From the NCBI GenBank assembly GCA_017628845.1, contig JAGBYI010000189.1, positions 1 through 35,027 on the forward strand: 35,027 nt of DNA, written 5' to 3'. Made by a program: the position numbers and the translations under genes. Origin of the DNA: Bacteroidaceae bacterium (lineage in GTDB: Bacteria; Bacteroidota; Bacteroidia; Bacteroidales; Bacteroidaceae). The notes under the pieces were generated by a model. The model ran no database searches. It saw only the letters and a list, made by a program, of their open reading frames with translations, and had not been told where the DNA came from. The stretch's first letter is position 1; each line of letters opens with the position of its first letter. Shown here piece after piece: positions 676 to 25,388 of the stretch.

Positions 676-3516
676 TTACTTTACCACAATGTTCACGATA
701 CGCTTGGGCACGGCAATGGTCTTAACGATCTGCTTGCCCTCCAGGTGCTTCTGTGCCTCGGGTGCGGCAAGAGCCATCTCTACCATCTGCTCGGGAGTGG
801 CATCGGCGGGGAACTGCATGGCAAAGCGAACCTTGCCGTTGAACTGTACGCCCAACTGCACACTGCTCTCCACCAGATACTTCTCGTCGAATGCAGGCCA
901 CAGGGCATCGCATACGCTGCCTTCCTGGCCAAGCGCCTCCCACAACTCCTCTGCCATGTGAGGTGCGAAAGGTGCGAGCAGGGCAACTATCTGTGTCATC
1001 ACCTCGCGGCTACGGCACTTCTGTGCGGTGAGTTCGTTTATTGCCACCATGAAGGCAGAGATGGAGGTATTGTATGAGAACTCCTCAATATCGGCGCTCA
1101 CCTTCTTGATGAGCTTGTGCAGAGACTTCATGTTGTCGGCGGTGGGTTCGGTGGCATCTGCCTGCAGGTTGCCGTCCTTGTCCCAGAACAGTTGCCACAA
1201 CTTCTTCAGGAAGCGATGACATCCGTCAATGCCGTTGGTATCCCAGGGCTTGCTCTGCTCCACAGGGCCGAGGAACATTTCATACAGGCGCAGGGTGTCG
1301 GCACCGTAGCGCTCAACTATCATGTCGGGGTTCACCACGTTGAACATACTCTTTGACATCTTCTCCACGGCCCAGCCGCAGATGTACTTGTCGTCCTCCA
1401 GGATGAACTCTGCCGTCTCGTATTCGGGGCGCCATGCCTTGAAGGCCTCCACGTCCAGGACGTCGTTCTTCACTATGTTCACGTCCACGTGGATGGGCGT
1501 TGTGTCGTACTGGTCCTTGAGGCCCAGGCTTACGAAGGTGTTGGTGTCCTTGATACGGTATACGAAGTTGCTTCGTCCCTGGATCATACCCTGGTTGATG
1601 AGTTTCTGGAAGGGTTCCTCCTTCTTGCTCACGCCCAGGTCGAAGAGGAACTTGTTCCAGAAGCGAGAGTAGATAAGGTGACCGGTGGCATGCTCGCTGC
1701 CGCCCACGTAGAGGTCAACGTTCTGCCAGTATTCCGATGCCTTCTCGCCAACGAGCGCCTCGCCGTTGTTGGGGTCCATGTAGCGCAGGTAGTATGCACT
1801 TGAACCGGCAAAGCCAGGCATGGTAAAGAGTTCGATGGGGAAGACGGTCTTCTCGTCGATGAGTGCCTTGTCCACAATCTTGCGGTTGGCCTCATCCCAC
1901 GCCCAAAGTTGTGCGTTGCCCAGTGGGGGTTCACCACTCTCGGTGGGCAAGAAGTTCTCCACCTGTGGAAGTTCCACGGGCAGGCATTCCTCTGGAATCA
2001 TGCAGGGGATGCCATGCCTATAGTAGACGGGGAAGGGTTCGCCCCAATATCTCTGACGGGAGAAGATGGCATCGCGCAGGCGGTAGTTCACCTTCACACG
2101 GCCAAGGCCGTTCTCGCTGACGAACTTCTTTGTTGCAGCGATGGCCTCCTTGATAGTCAAACCATTCAGGGTGAAACCGTTCAGCGAAGGCTTGCCCTCC
2201 ATGGGAGAGTTCATCACTATACCCTCCTTGGCATCGTAACTCTCTTCACTCACGTCGGCACCCTCCACCAATGGGATGATGGGCAGGTTGAAATGGCGTG
2301 CAAAGGCATAGTCACGAGAGTCGTGTGCAGGTACTGCCATGATGGCACCAGTACCATAACCGGAGAGGACGTACTCGGCAATGTATATGGGGCACTTCTC
2401 GCCAGTGATGGGGTTGATGCCGTAAGAACCGGAGAACACGCCTGTTACGGTGCGGTCAATCTGGCGCTCACGCTCGGTGCGGCTCTTTACGTAGGTCAGG
2501 TACTTGTCCACCTCCTCCTTCTGCTCGGCAGAGGTGAGTTGTGCTACTAGTTCGCTTTCTGGAGCCAGAACGAAGAAGGTGACACCGAACATGGTGTCGG
2601 CACGGGTGGTGAAAATGGTGAACTCTATGTCGCTGTCTGCCACCTTTATCTGCACCTCGGCACCTTCGCTACGGCCTATCCAGTTCTTCTGTGTCTCCTT
2701 GATGCTATCGCTCCACTGTATGGTATCCAAACCATCCAGAAGTCTCTGGGAATATGCGCTCACACGCAGACACCACTGGCGCATCTTCTTCTGCTCCACG
2801 GGGTATCCGCCACGCTCGCTCACGCCGTCGATAACCTCATCGTTGGCCAGTACGGTACCCAACTTGGGACACCAGTTCACCATTGTCTCGCCCAGGAAGG
2901 CTATGCGGTAGTTCATCAGCGTCTGGCTCTTCTCCTGCTCGCTCATGGCCTTCCACTCATCGGCGGTGAAGCAGAGTTCTTCCGAGCAGGCGGCATTGAT
3001 GCCCTCGGTACCCTTTGCCTCTAAGTTGGCAACAAGCTGGTCGATGGGTTGTGCCTTGCCCAGAGCTGTGTCGAAGTATGAGTTGAACATCTTCTGGAAG
3101 GCCCATTGTGTCCAGTGGTAGTAGCCGGGGGCACAGGTGCGCACCTCGCGGTCCCAGTCGAAGCAGAATCCTATCTTGTCCAGCTGCTCGCGATAGCGGT
3201 CAATGTTCTGGAAGGTGGTCTTCTCGGGGTGCTGACCTGTCTGTATGGCATACTGCTCGGCAGGCAAACCATATGAGTCATAGCCCATAGGATTAAGCAC
3301 GTTATAACCCTGCTGGCGTTTGAAACGCGCATAAATGTCGCTGGCAATATAGCCAAGGGGATGACCCACGTGCAAACCTGCACCGCTGGGATAGGGGAAC
3401 ATGTTCAGGACATAGAACTTCTTCTTTGCCTCATCCTCCTCGACGTGGTATGTCTTGTTGGCCACCCACAGGGCACGCCACTTCTCTTCAATCTTTCTAA
3501 AATCGTAGTCTCTCAT
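676..3516 (-). CDS. leuS: Leucyl-tRNA synthetase
   Basis: Class I aminoacyl-tRNA synthetase that charges tRNA-Leu in the cytoplasm. The HIGH signature is HVGH at residues 49-52 and KMSKS is at 719-723. The CP1 editing domain shows TTRADTMFG (303-311) and [16 protein letters not shown] (388-403), so post-transfer editing is probably intact. At 946 aa it is longer than the roughly 860 aa of E. coli LeuRS. The extra length appears mainly as an insertion near residues 148-200 and another of about 55 residues between GRSN (647-650) and KMSKS; such insertions are, to my knowledge, common in Bacteroidota LeuRS. ATG at 3516 gives a normal N-terminus ([13 protein letters not shown]). A consensus promoter lies 27 bp upstream. 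Confidence 0.97.
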
Positions 3517-3574: not shown

Positions 3575-3886
3575 AGAATTTAGTTTTTTCCTAATATGAT
3601 TGTCAATGAAATCTATCCAAACTATGGATTATATTATGCTTAGGTAGTAGAAATTAAAGAATTGAGTCCAAAACGGAAAGGGAATGTATTCCTTTTATGC
3701 AGAATAAAAACAAATAGGACAATACGTTAGATAAATTTGTATAGAAGCTGATTAAGGTAAATTAGAAGCGTGTTCTTCTGCAATCAGTCTATTGTGTAAA
3801 AATGACAAAAAGCTTTGATTTCCGTCAACATGTTTTGATATAAATCAACAAATAAGTGTTTTTCTTACAATAATTAGTCCGTAGCT
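3575..3886. other. AT-rich intergenic region with no gene seen
   Basis: About 310 bp between the leuS promoter and the promoter of the noncoding RNA. No credible reading frame on either strand. A short imperfect hairpin (AAAGGGAAT/ATTCCTTT, about 3678-3697) and an isolated TAAATTTG near 3732 without a -33 partner are the only structures noticed. I assign no function. Confidence 0.6.
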
Positions 3887-3917
3887 CTTGCGTATATCAA
3901 GAAAAGCCGTACCTTTG
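3887..3917 (+). promoter_or_regulatory. Promoter of the orphan noncoding RNA
   Basis: CTTG (3887-3890) as a -33 element, a 19-nt gap, then TACCTTTG (3910-3917), a perfect TAnnTTTG -7 box. Predicted transcription start is about 3922-3925. No protein-coding gene follows on the plus strand; the next plus-strand gene is a tRNA more than 3.5 kb away. Confidence 0.75.
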
Positions 3918-3921
3918 CAAT

Positions 3922-4148
3922 GCCTTCCGAGAGGAACGCATGACATATAAGAGAAGTTGTTTTAGGTTTTTCATGATATTAGATTAGGTTAAGTTTGTTT
4001 AGGTTAACACCACTCAACTAATACTTGTTTAAGGTAAAGGAAAACTGATTGCTTTCAGGAATTAAAAGTAGAAGTTTGAGAGATTAATCATAACATTAGT
4101 CATGGTGTGAAGGGCGCTTGGTTCGTGAGAATCGGCGCTCTTTTTCGT
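3922..4148 (+). ncRNA. Orphan structured noncoding RNA, about 225 nt, possibly 6S-like
   Basis: A stand-alone transcription unit bounded by a consensus promoter (3887-3917) and an intrinsic terminator (4111-4145), with no open frame of note. The ends can pair: CCTTC (3923-3927) with GAAGG (4109-4113), then, across an internal loop, CATGAC (3939-3944) with GTCATG (4099-4104). The interior is A/T-rich with three TTAGGTT motifs between 3962 and 4006. A long irregular rod closed by paired ends and an open internal loop resembles 6S RNA or the Bacteroidales-1 motif; I cannot decide between these or exclude a new family. The closing pairs at 4111-4113 compete with the terminator stem. That it is an RNA gene is well supported; its identity is not. 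Confidence 0.65.
4111..4145 (+). terminator. Intrinsic terminator of the noncoding RNA
   Basis: AGGGCGC (4111-4117) pairs with GCGCTCT (4135-4141) with one G-U pair, followed at once by a run of five T and then CGTTTT. Confidence 0.75.
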
Positions 4149-4764: not shown

Positions 4765-6426
4765 TTATTTCTCTTTCTTTGACAATATTCTTTCGTATGC
4801 CTGAGGGTTTTTCAATAGGTTCACAGCGCAGCGGTACGCCTTGTCCTTGGGCATGGCATGCCGTATGCTTCCATTCTGGTGATAGTACCTGATGACAGCC
4901 TCTCCCTCAAGGTATGGGATTATGTGCTTTTTCAAGCGTTCGAGATCCTTTTTGGTGTCGGGTGCGAACTTTGCCTCAAGCGCAGCCATCTCTTCCTTGG
5001 CGTCTTCCAGGTAACCTTCCATTTCGGCAACTTTGCGAAGAAGTTCCATCACCTCGTCCGAGCGTCGGTTGTATTTGAAATCCGACTTTTCCACATAGGC
5101 GCAGAAATCGGCATATATGCTGTCCGTGATATGGAATTCTCCAGGAGGTGCTATGGTGGGGTGGGCGGAAGCAAAGTCGGTTCCCCAGTCGAAGAACACG
5201 TCGCTCTGTACCAGGTCGTACACCATGGTGGGCAGTGTGTCGTTGTGCATCAGGCTGTCCGGCTGGATGCCGCCTCCATCGGTAACCGGACGCCCTGCTT
5301 GGGTGTAGAAGGTTCTTCGCAAGGAATCAGGTATGGACTTGGTGCTGCCGTCGTGGTTGTACTCGTGCGCCTGGATGCAACGCCCAGAGGGTATGTAGTA
5401 GCGACCCGTGGTAATCTTCAGTTCTCCACGATAAGGCACATCGCGTATAGCTTGTACAAGGCCCTTGCCGAAGGTACGTGTACCCATGATGACAGCACGA
5501 TCCATGTCCTGCAAGGCTCCACTGACAATCTCGGAAGAAGAGGCCGACATCCCGTTTACTAGCACCACCAAGGGCATGTCTGGTGCTATAGGATCAGTGG
5601 TTGTGTAGTATTCGTGGTTCATGGAAACTTGCTTGCCCTTGGTGTAGACCACCTTCACTCCCTTGGGCAGGAACAGGTTGGTTATGTCTACAGCCTCGTT
5701 TATGGCACCACCCACATTGTCGCGGATGTCCAGGACAAGGCCTTTTGCTCCCTGCGACATGAGTTGCAGAAGGGCATGGCGCACCTCGCGGGCGCACCCG
5801 GATGTAAAGCTATTCAGGTTGATGTAGCCGATACCATCGTCCATTATGCCATAGTAAGGTATGGCGGGCAATTGGATGGTACGGCGAGTGATGTGAACAA
5901 TACGTGGTTTCTTTTCTCCGGGGCGCTGAAAACAAAGTTCAAGCGTTGTGCCTGCCTCGCCACGGAGCATTTCCGTCACTTTCGTTGGCGTCATGCCCTT
6001 AATGTCCTTGCCGTCTACTGTCAGGATAATGTCACCGGCTCTTAAGCCTGCATCCTGACTGGGAGTGTTGGTGTACGGCTCGTCTATCACCACGCGGTCG
6101 TGTTTCCTGTGGAAACGTATTATGCTGCCTATGCCGGCATATTTGCCCGTTGCCATCTGGCGCAGGTCGTCATCGTCGGCAGGGTAGTATCCGGTGAATG
6201 GATCCACTTTCATGAGCATGCCGTCAATGGCCCAACGGATAACGGTGTCGGCAGCCAGCGTGTCTACATAGAAAAGGTCCAGGGCCTTGTATATTTCGTT
6301 GAATATTTCTAAGTTGCGTGCTACCTTGGAATTATGGTTCTCTACTACCTGCGCACCGACAGGAGTGTGTATGCCTGCCCAAAGGGCAAGTGCTGAAACA
6401 AGGAAAAACTGACGTATTATTTTCAT
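4765..6426 (-). CDS. S41 (C-terminal processing type) protease with PDZ domain
   Basis: Secreted or periplasmic serine protease of the CtpA/Tsp family, 553 aa. I chose ATG 6426 over an in-frame GTG 15 bp upstream because GAGG sits 5 nt before it and the product then opens with a clean signal peptide (MKIIRQFFLVSALALWAG, with GAQ near residue 26). The PDZ domain is around residues 95-180 (AGLRAGDIILTVDGKDIKG). The catalytic core has the nucleophile in NGMSASSSEIVSGAL and the general-base lysine in GTRTFGKGLV, the usual Ser/Lys dyad. A helical, charged C-terminal extension follows. It lies 66 bp downstream of the PfkB kinase and directly upstream of the 38-aa membrane peptide. Confidence 0.93.
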   Translation of the reverse strand: MKIIRQFFLVSALALWAGIHTPVGAQVVENHNSKVARNLEIFNEIYKALDLFYVDTLAADTVIRWAIDGMLMKVDPFTGYYPADDDDLRQMATGKYAGIGSIIRFHRKHDRVVIDEPYTNTPSQDAGLRAGDIILTVDGKDIKGMTPTKVTEMLRGEAGTTLELCFQRPGEKKPRIVHITRRTIQLPAIPYYGIMDDGIGYINLNSFTSGCAREVRHALLQLMSQGAKGLVLDIRDNVGGAINEAVDITNLFLPKGVKVVYTKGKQVSMNHEYYTTTDPIAPDMPLVVLVNGMSASSSEIVSGALQDMDRAVIMGTRTFGKGLVQAIRDVPYRGELKITTGRYYIPSGRCIQAHEYNHDGSTKSIPDSLRRTFYTQAGRPVTDGGGIQPDSLMHNDTLPTMVYDLVQSDVFFDWGTDFASAHPTIAPPGEFHITDSIYADFCAYVEKSDFKYNRRSDEVMELLRKVAEMEGYLEDAKEEMAALEAKFAPDTKKDLERLKKHIIPYLEGEAVIRYYHQNGSIRHAMPKDKAYRCAVNLLKNPQAYERILSKKEK

Positions 6427-6492
6427 AATCCTCAATATCACTTTCCGTTGAAAGAGGGGAAGTGAACCATTATATACTATGTAGGGGTGCGT

Positions 6493-7473
6493 TTATCTGC
6501 AATCTATGCTTGTCTTGATTCTGTTCCATGCGGCAGGACTCAACTGGCTGCCCATAACCTGAACTGCTTCTGTTGCCAAGACTGTTCCTGTATGTAAACA
6601 TTTCTGCAGTCTATGCCCACGTGTGAGGGCATGCAGGAAGCCAGCGGCAAAATAGTCTCCGGCCGCTGTTGTATCTACTACGTTTTCCACATATTCGGCA
6701 TGGCATTTGTATATTCGTCCGCCTTCATGCATGGCAATGGAACCCTGCTCGCCAAGTTTGACAACGGCAGTCTCACACAGGTGGGCAATATGTCTTAACT
6801 GCTCTTGAGAGTCGAAACTTCCTGTGAAGGCACGTGCCTCTCCCTCATTTGCAAAGACTATGTCAATATAGTCAGAAATCAAGTGATGGAAATAAGTGCG
6901 GTGCTTGCTTACAACATTGAAACTGGAAAGGTCCAGACTGAGGATGAGGCCAGCCTGCTTGGCTTTTTGGCAGATTGTCTCGATTAGTTCCTCGTTCTGC
7001 ACCAGATATCCCTCTATGTGAAGCAAGTCATATCCGCAGAACATATCCTCAGTGATGTCATTGGGGGCCAGATAATATGCAGCGCCCAACAGAGTGCCGA
7101 AGGTACGACTTCCACCAGGAGTGATGAAAGTATGTGCAACACCTGTGGCCTCGTCTCCGCGGATCAATTGTGTGTGCACACCGGCATCTGATAGTTTCTG
7201 TTCGAAGAAACTGCCCATACCATCGTTGCCGACTCGGCCAATGTAACCAGGTTCGTTGCCAAGCCGAGCCAATGCCACCATAGTGTTTCCTATGCTGCCA
7301 CCACTGGCCATTCGCTTTTCTATGTCGCTGGTCAAATTCTCAATCTCATGCTCCCAACGCTCGTTTATGAGCGTCATGGCATCCTTCTTCAAATGTATTT
7401 CACTGAGCAGATGTTCGTCGTCCAAACGATAGAGCACATCCACCAAAGCGTTGCCTATTCCTAATATTTTCAT
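6493..7473 (-). CDS. PfkB-family carbohydrate/nucleoside kinase
   Basis: Ribokinase-like sugar or nucleoside kinase, 326 aa. ATG 7473 (MKILGIGNALVDVLYRL) gives the family's usual start; an in-frame TTG 24 bp upstream would add an AT-rich extension and is rejected. The first PfkB motif is GGSIGNTMVALARLG and the second is DTTAAGDYFAAGFLHAL, in which the anion-hole/catalytic AAGD replaces the commoner GAGD. Overall it resembles the adenosine-kinase-like branch common in Bacteroidota, but the substrate cannot be read from the sequence. Probably first gene of a unit with the S41 protease. Confidence 0.88.
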   Translation of the reverse strand: MKILGIGNALVDVLYRLDDEHLLSEIHLKKDAMTLINERWEHEIENLTSDIEKRMASGGSIGNTMVALARLGNEPGYIGRVGNDGMGSFFEQKLSDAGVHTQLIRGDEATGVAHTFITPGGSRTFGTLLGAAYYLAPNDITEDMFCGYDLLHIEGYLVQNEELIETICQKAKQAGLILSLDLSSFNVVSKHRTYFHHLISDYIDIVFANEGEARAFTGSFDSQEQLRHIAHLCETAVVKLGEQGSIAMHEGGRIYKCHAEYVENVVDTTAAGDYFAAGFLHALTRGHRLQKCLHTGTVLATEAVQVMGSQLSPAAWNRIKTSIDCR

Positions 7474-7565: not shown

Positions 7566-7639
7566 GCTTCAGTAGCTCAGTTGGTTAGAGCACATGACTG
7601 TTAATCATGGGGTCGTTGGTTCAAGCCCATCCTGAAGCG
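7566..7639 (+). tRNA. tRNA-Asn(GTT), copy 1
   Basis: A complete cloverleaf: acceptor GCTTCAG (7566-7572)/CTGAAGC (7632-7638) with discriminator G at 7639, D arm with AGTTGGTTAGA, anticodon stem CATGA/TCATG around CTGTTAA (anticodon GTT), variable loop, and a T arm with loop TTCAAGC. The T stem has one U-U mismatch in its second pair, present in both copies. CCA is not encoded. Confidence 0.95.
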
Positions 7640-7675: not shown

Positions 7676-7749
7676 GCTTCAGTAGCTCAGTTGGTTAGAG
7701 CACATGACTGTTAATCATGGGGTCGTTGGTTCAAGCCCATCCTGAAGCG
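7676..7749 (+). tRNA. tRNA-Asn(GTT), copy 2
   Basis: Identical over all 74 bases to the copy starting at 7566, with a period of 110 bp. The 36-bp spacer shows no promoter, so both are probably cut from one precursor. Confidence 0.95.
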
Positions 7750-25248: not shown

Positions 25249-25332
25249 TTAGTAATGTATGGGGAAAGAAATAGGGCGGAATGCGTGAAAGTCCTGTGTG
25301 CCATTGGCCAAGCAGGTCTTTTCTTTTAGCAT
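25249..25332 (-). CDS. Possible 27-codon upstream ORF in the metK leader
   Basis: ATG at 25332 lies within the conserved AUGCUAAA of the riboswitch-like element and follows seven A residues, a favourable context for Bacteroidota translation starts. The frame runs [18 protein letters not shown] and on to a TAA at 25251-25249, 29 nt before the metK ATG and out of frame with it. Coding status is unproven; it may be a chance frame. Confidence 0.25.
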
Positions 25333-25372
25333 TTTTTTCTGTGGTTGCAAGCAGCCCAAATCTATCCACATG
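25315..25372 (-). promoter_or_regulatory. Candidate SAM-II riboswitch in the metK leader
   Basis: Minus-strand reading: TGTGG (25370-25366) pairs with CCACA (25344-25340) as P1. Between them lie GATTT and CTTGCAA, and after them come AAAAAAATGCTAAAAG (core GCTAAA at 25330-25325) and GACC (25318-25315). The order P1, GAUUU loop, UUGCAA, P1', A-rich stretch, AUGCUAAA, then a G/C pair closing a pseudoknot is that of SAM-II aptamers, known from alphaproteobacteria and Bacteroidota methionine genes. The aptamer begins about 13 nt after the predicted start site. The pseudoknot stem P2 is not convincing by eye, which is the main uncertainty. Confidence 0.7.
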
Positions 25373-25388
25373 TTCATGAAATCGGGTG

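Follow-up and report, generated by a model that had tools for sequence, protein, structure and literature searches.

What kind of gene occupies the gap between leuS and an S41 peptidase gene in this Bacteroidaceae genome, and what might its product do? The window (the whole stretch of DNA analysed, 35,027 nucleotides) is the entire contig C206 of a 2.67-Mb genome that is 84.6% complete and distributed over 223 contigs. Within the gap, positions 3835-4146 carry, in order, a palindrome, a Bacteroidota promoter, approximately 225 nucleotides with no open reading frame (ORF) and a terminator. We call this form of the RNA 'type A', to distinguish it from related forms of approximately 320 nucleotides (type B) and approximately 95-150 nucleotides (type C).

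Organization of the locus

The features of the locus are as follows.

3835-3848, no strand: palindrome TTGATATAAATCAA, from the aligned promoters
3888-3917, plus strand: Bacteroidota promoter (TTG at 3888-3890, -7 box TACCTTTG at 3910-3917), from sequence and alignment
3922-4146, plus strand: type-A RNA, approximately 225 nucleotides, from ten distinct aligned sequences, both ends placed from promoter and terminator
3922-3939, plus strand: 5' hairpin GCCUUCCGAGAGGAACGC (consensus helix 1), 86.7% of cells paired
3966-3992, plus strand: FopS-like seed GUUUUUCAUGAUAUUAGAUUAGGUUAA, with the anti-start CAU at 3972-3974
3982-4004, plus strand: invariant segment GAUUAGGUUAAGUUUGUUUAGGU, the same in 10/10 type-A sequences
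4007-4108, plus strand: folded body, from the consensus fold of ten type-A sequences
4111-4145, plus strand: intrinsic terminator with a GUGA loop (stem 4111-4140, 13 pairs; T5 at 4141-4145)
676-3516, minus strand: leuS, divergent neighbour (Pfam)
4765-6441, minus strand: S41 peptidase, the next gene downstream of the RNA

A first-pass annotation, made from the sequence alone, had described a free-standing RNA gene with a consensus promoter, no open frame and an intrinsic terminator, and had placed it downstream of leuS. The RNA in fact lies 5' of leuS. The promoter is present and is of the Bacteroidota type, with 19 nucleotides between TTG and TACCTTTG; a scan for Escherichia coli-type promoters does not list it. 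No stretch free of stops exceeds 22 codons in any of the three sense frames, in agreement with the proposed absence of an ORF. The terminator is missed by a simple terminator scan; its stem is paired in 100% of cells in 10/10 sequences, with two pairs changed on both sides, which bears out the original call. Elsewhere, the window includes a SAM-II riboswitch (25316-25375, minus strand, 55.8 bits, Rfam) and two adjoining tRNA genes with identical Rfam scores (7566-7639 and 7676-7749, plus strand).

Conservation and folding

A DNA search of 139 genomes of the genus matched 18, and a full ortholog occurs in ten, including the genome of origin. Seven of the ten are also present as named contigs (L070, L080, L082, L087, L093, L127 and L128); contigs with the RNA are labelled Bacteroidaceae, Prevotellaceae or Bacteroides and several come from ruminant guts. 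Mean column identity in the alignment (n = 10) is 75%. A block of 23 nucleotides is invariant in all ten, and its first 21 nucleotides recur in the short type-C relatives (L053-L055). The promoter box TAnnTTTG is kept in 14/14 aligned promoters. No DNA similar to the type-A RNA was found in the plasmid collection, and the exact invariant segment is absent from the viral contigs.

The consensus fold has 46 pairs, with 97.2% of cells paired compared with 95.7% in shuffles. Over the whole RNA, six pairs have changed on both sides, a number reached in 0/500 shuffles; the number of additional pair types does not rise above shuffles (196/500). Two of the pairs with changes on both sides are in the 5' hairpin. 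The body is closed by the helix ACACCA (4007-4012)/UGGUGU (4103-4108), paired in 100% of cells, whose first pair varies between A-U, G-U and G-C. It encloses the helices CUCAA (4013-4017)/UUGAG (4076-4080) and UACUU (4022-4026)/AAGUA (4066-4070) and the hairpin GAUUAAU (4082-4088)/AUUAGUC (4095-4101). Folded as a single sequence, the window RNA is unremarkable (z -1.35; -5.23 for L070 and -3.08 for L051), so that the case for an RNA rests on conservation. Orthologs, conserved promoter and covarying fold together uphold the free-standing gene: this is a real, conserved RNA gene of approximately 225 nucleotides.

The self-complementary ends on which the first-pass annotation built a 6S-like rod do not survive alignment. 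CATGAC occurs in one of the ten sequences, that of the window itself. GTCATG (4099-4104) is kept in 8/10, with its letters used by two other helices: GUC pairs with 4082-4084 and UG with 4011-4012. CCTTC pairs within the local 5' hairpin. The 11 proposed end pairs are paired in 71.3% of cells versus 70.4% in shuffles, with a covariation score (0.174) identical to the average of the shuffles. The suggested competition between these pairs and the terminator stem falls with them.

Comparison with RNA families

At the Rfam thresholds, no family matches the type-A RNA. The two families proposed earlier do not match in the window: Bacteroidales-1 (RF01693) has its own copy elsewhere in this genome (C98:8715-8881, 126.8 bits), and the 12.4 bits for 6S (RF00013) also fall elsewhere in the genome. 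In permissive mode FopS (RF04319) scores highest, with 24.2 bits at 3964-4033 (cut-off 56, E-value 0.26); two to three further sites in this genome, devoid of FopS features, score at a similar level. Membership of FopS was rejected on score and on length, and we retain FopS as a description of how the RNA may work. In a literature search covering mainly open-access papers, none was found that names the longer type-A RNA. The alternative of a new RNA, offered in the event that neither family matched, stands as regards Rfam, but seed and promoter link the RNA to the known FopS small RNAs (sRNAs).

The genome has one FopS above the Rfam threshold (L001, 83.6 bits). Its seed and positions 3966-3992 are identical at 26/27 nucleotides (one mismatch) plus a 2-nucleotide gap, and 0/2000 shuffles align as well. 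By this alignment the type-A RNA carries the R1/R1' seed of FopS, and its TACCTTTG box gives it the canonical sigma-ABfr-type promoter. It departs from FopS in length (approximately 225 rather than 65-70 nucleotides) and in seed position (from approximately nucleotide 45, not at the 5' end). Five of the ten type-A sequences retain the CAU seed.

Promoter architecture and a possible regulon

A palindrome, TTGAN6TCAA, lies 60-62 nucleotides before the -7 box in 14/14 promoters, including that of the genome's own FopS, and in 17/17 type-B relatives. In this genome, both FopS and the type-A gene have TTGATATAAATCAA 60 or 61 nucleotides before TACCTTTG. We take the palindrome to be of FNR/CRP-like shape. 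In a 389-kb sample of the genome, which contains the type-A and FopS contigs by choice, only these two genes among seven palindromes show the arrangement. If TTTGCA is also required, there are four such sites in the entire genome, two of which are the type-A RNA and FopS. The pattern occurs in 40/41 genomes of the genus and its reversed control in 0/41. FopS-like seeds at two loci of another genus and in four viral contigs lack the palindrome; in the viral contigs (L330-L333) a terminator-like hairpin comes after the seed, which is exactly that of FopS.

The downstream genes were read at 31 of these sites from 30 loci. They include FopS (three) and type B or C (four). Pfam analysis of six other downstream proteins identified P-II (two), diaminopimelate epimerase, semialdehyde dehydrogenase, a winged-helix protein and DUF2807. 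The presence of the palindrome promoter before P-II, dapF, asd-like and winged-helix genes (by Pfam in L302, L305, L316 and L324; by eye in L303, L310 and L318) suggests a nitrogen or amino-acid regulon. A palindrome at fixed distance, common to FopS, the type-A RNA and a few such genes, would constitute a testable operator.

Other RNA-like sequences (AGATTTGTTTGAAGGTTAATAATAG) follow the palindrome promoter in L313 and L317 (from approximately position 1584). The SnoA/HcpR RNA, considered in connection with the palindrome, was set aside: as far as the accessible part of the source goes (PMC13370916), it is another RNA at another locus.

The GGTTCGTGAGAATCGGC terminator hairpin was rejected as a family marker, and kinship was not argued from it, because it recurs as a terminator on other Bacteroidota RNAs and genes. 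One free-standing element recurrent in Bacteroides, for example, combines a TATCTTTG promoter and GAAGACT..AGTCTTCATTCATAGATGATGATTGG with the same hairpin (L072, approximately 7250-7410; also L078, L096, L107, L131 and others); in L072 and L095 it meets no Rfam threshold.

Related forms

A 64-nucleotide seed search of the 139 genomes found type A in ten, type C in three and, assigned by a typical 26-nucleotide match, type B in 35; none falls under two types. Seventeen of the 35 type-B loci were read, and 16 of these were aligned after removal of one near-duplicate. The first CAU block is kept in 16/16, the second in 15/16 and GAUUUGUUCAUAG in 16/16; ACGGTTTTTCATGGTATTAGGTTAGTTTTAA is also kept in 16/16 and CGCAGUGAUGCG is exact in 12. 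Ten of 28 predicted pairs have changed on both sides, and the type-B RNA of L177 folds better than 100/100 shuffles. Three type-B and two type-C loci were below the Rfam thresholds. Type A resembles both type B and type C more than any of 2000 shuffles; the similarity of type C to FopS does not go beyond shuffles (41/2000 as good).

Synteny between the forms is partial. leuS adjoins type A in L045, L046, L049 and L050 (duplicates L080 and L087) and all three type-C loci (L053-L055), and was not found at the 17 type-B loci read. A mutS cluster (Pfam on two members) flanks the distinct type-A relatives L047, L048, L049 and L051, in some cases via named duplicates, and 5/17 type-B loci; by eye, mutS begins after all three type-C RNAs. 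That mutS lies beside some of each type suggests that A, B and C are variants of one gene. Model R1, run over 399 genomes of the family, matched 31; the 27 loci read comprise three of type A, two of type B (L177 and L187) and two short FopS-like RNAs (L185 and L199), the others being terminators or unclear places.

Potential targets

The type-A seed is antisense to UUAACCUAAUCUAAUAUC-AUG-AAAAAC. Among its 44 best non-ortholog matches, 31 are antisense at an ORF start and three are sense; for a shuffled seed (n = 30) the figures are 15 and two (p = 0.09). As the shuffled seed already places 15/30 at ORF starts, much of the strand bias can be put down to base composition. The whole start codon falls inside the match in 21/44 compared with 2/30 for the shuffled seed (p = 0.0002; two further control matches overlap it in part). 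Only 15 different N-termini stand behind these 21 matches; besides, a preference for start codons is to be expected of any query containing CAU in that context.

In the top SusC gene (L138), ATAAACAAACTAACCTTATT lies directly 5' of the ATG and gives, by eye, a bulged match to the invariant segment. Among 17 SusC loci it alone looked complementary; several starts could not be set. Predicted pairing in 286 genes from the 389 kb, a non-random sample of contigs listed in prior searches, that of FopS among them, is not clearly above shuffled seeds (z -0.8). In a second test of these genes the best z is 2.6, and coding-region controls for the same segment give 1.8. The seed is predicted to be only partly unpaired (mean 0.44). 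The target evidence is no more than suggestive: with little enrichment at the sampled starts, and with much explained by composition, the mechanism rests mainly on identity with the FopS seed.

Proposed function of the type-A RNA

By analogy with FopS, we consider it somewhat better than an even chance that the type-A RNA works in trans by pairing with translation starts, as a long and folded counterpart of the FopS sRNAs. It would be transcribed from the Bacteroidota promoter below the palindrome that it has in common with FopS. The U/G-rich stretch antisense to start-codon regions, between the 5' hairpin and the folded body ending in the terminator, would pair with mRNAs and block initiation of translation, and the body may serve to stabilize the transcript or to offer additional segments for pairing. 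This is how FopS-10 acts in Bacteroides thetaiotaomicron, where, in the part of the source available, it masks the start codon of susC and prevents translation of that mRNA (PMC11697453). Counting against such a mechanism are the retention of the CAU seed in only half of the type-A sequences, the low score with the FopS model, the shuffle-level similarity of type C to FopS and the failure to find an RRM protein in this genome. If correct, it would extend FopS-type control to larger folded RNAs of another lineage.

The loss of CAU from 5/10 sequences, while body and terminator persist, also fits an RNA whose working part is the body, which would bind a protein, or titrate one shared with FopS, the U-rich segment being a protein site and not a seed. 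In B. thetaiotaomicron, according to the part of the source available, RbpB binds the FopS seed region and counteracts repression by FopS-10 (PMC11697453). No RRM protein was found in the present genome (84.6% complete), however, and type B keeps its three CAU-containing blocks (16, 15 and 16 of 16), so we regard this explanation as unlikely, although with a real share of the probability. Action in cis on leuS and mutS, which flank several copies, is improbable: the RNA has a terminator of its own, leuS is transcribed in the opposite direction, and at 12/17 type-B loci neither gene was seen within the fetched flanks. A leader or leftover with no present function might be read from the minus-strand peptidase that follows in the window, where some relatives have mutS; strong terminator, covariation and promoter conservation make this very improbable. 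Length and a free-standing gene are what a 6S-like regulator of RNA polymerase has in its favour. With a branched fold, end pairing that is not conserved, no RF00013 or RF01693 match and Bacteroidales-1 located elsewhere, it is scarcely credible.

A wider version of the FopS-like reading, which we put forward tentatively and think rather unlikely to hold in full, would unite types A, B and C, across the genus, in a single class of anti-start-codon RNAs that are large, folded and multi-seed, co-regulated with FopS through a palindrome-binding regulator acting also on other promoters, among them those of glnB (P-II), dapF and asd. Through such an RNA, the translation of exported proteins would respond to nitrogen or amino-acid status.

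Comparison with known systems

Bacteroidales-1 (RF01693) and 6S (RF00013) RNAs resemble the type-A RNA in length and in being free-standing, and neither matches it. Two sRNAs of B. thetaiotaomicron are likened to it by description only, from partly available sources. BatR (154 nucleotides) is likewise structured and binds translation starts, and differs in relying on 5' processing (PMC10861873). GibS (145 nucleotides) is also a longer RNA with an R1-type seed covering start codons, and differs in having a PM2 promoter; besides R1 it has an R2 seed (PMC7366714, PMC11697453). The FopS of Bacteroides, as described in the part of the source available, form a family of approximately 65-70-nucleotide RNAs, possibly boosted by an unnamed regulator (PMC11697453). 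With FopS (RF04319) the type-A RNA shares the seed GUUUUUCAUGRUAUUAGAUU..AGGUUAA, the Bacteroidota promoter, a terminator with a GUGA loop and, in this genome, the palindrome 60-61 nucleotides upstream; it is distinguished from FopS by its length, its internal seed and its folded body.
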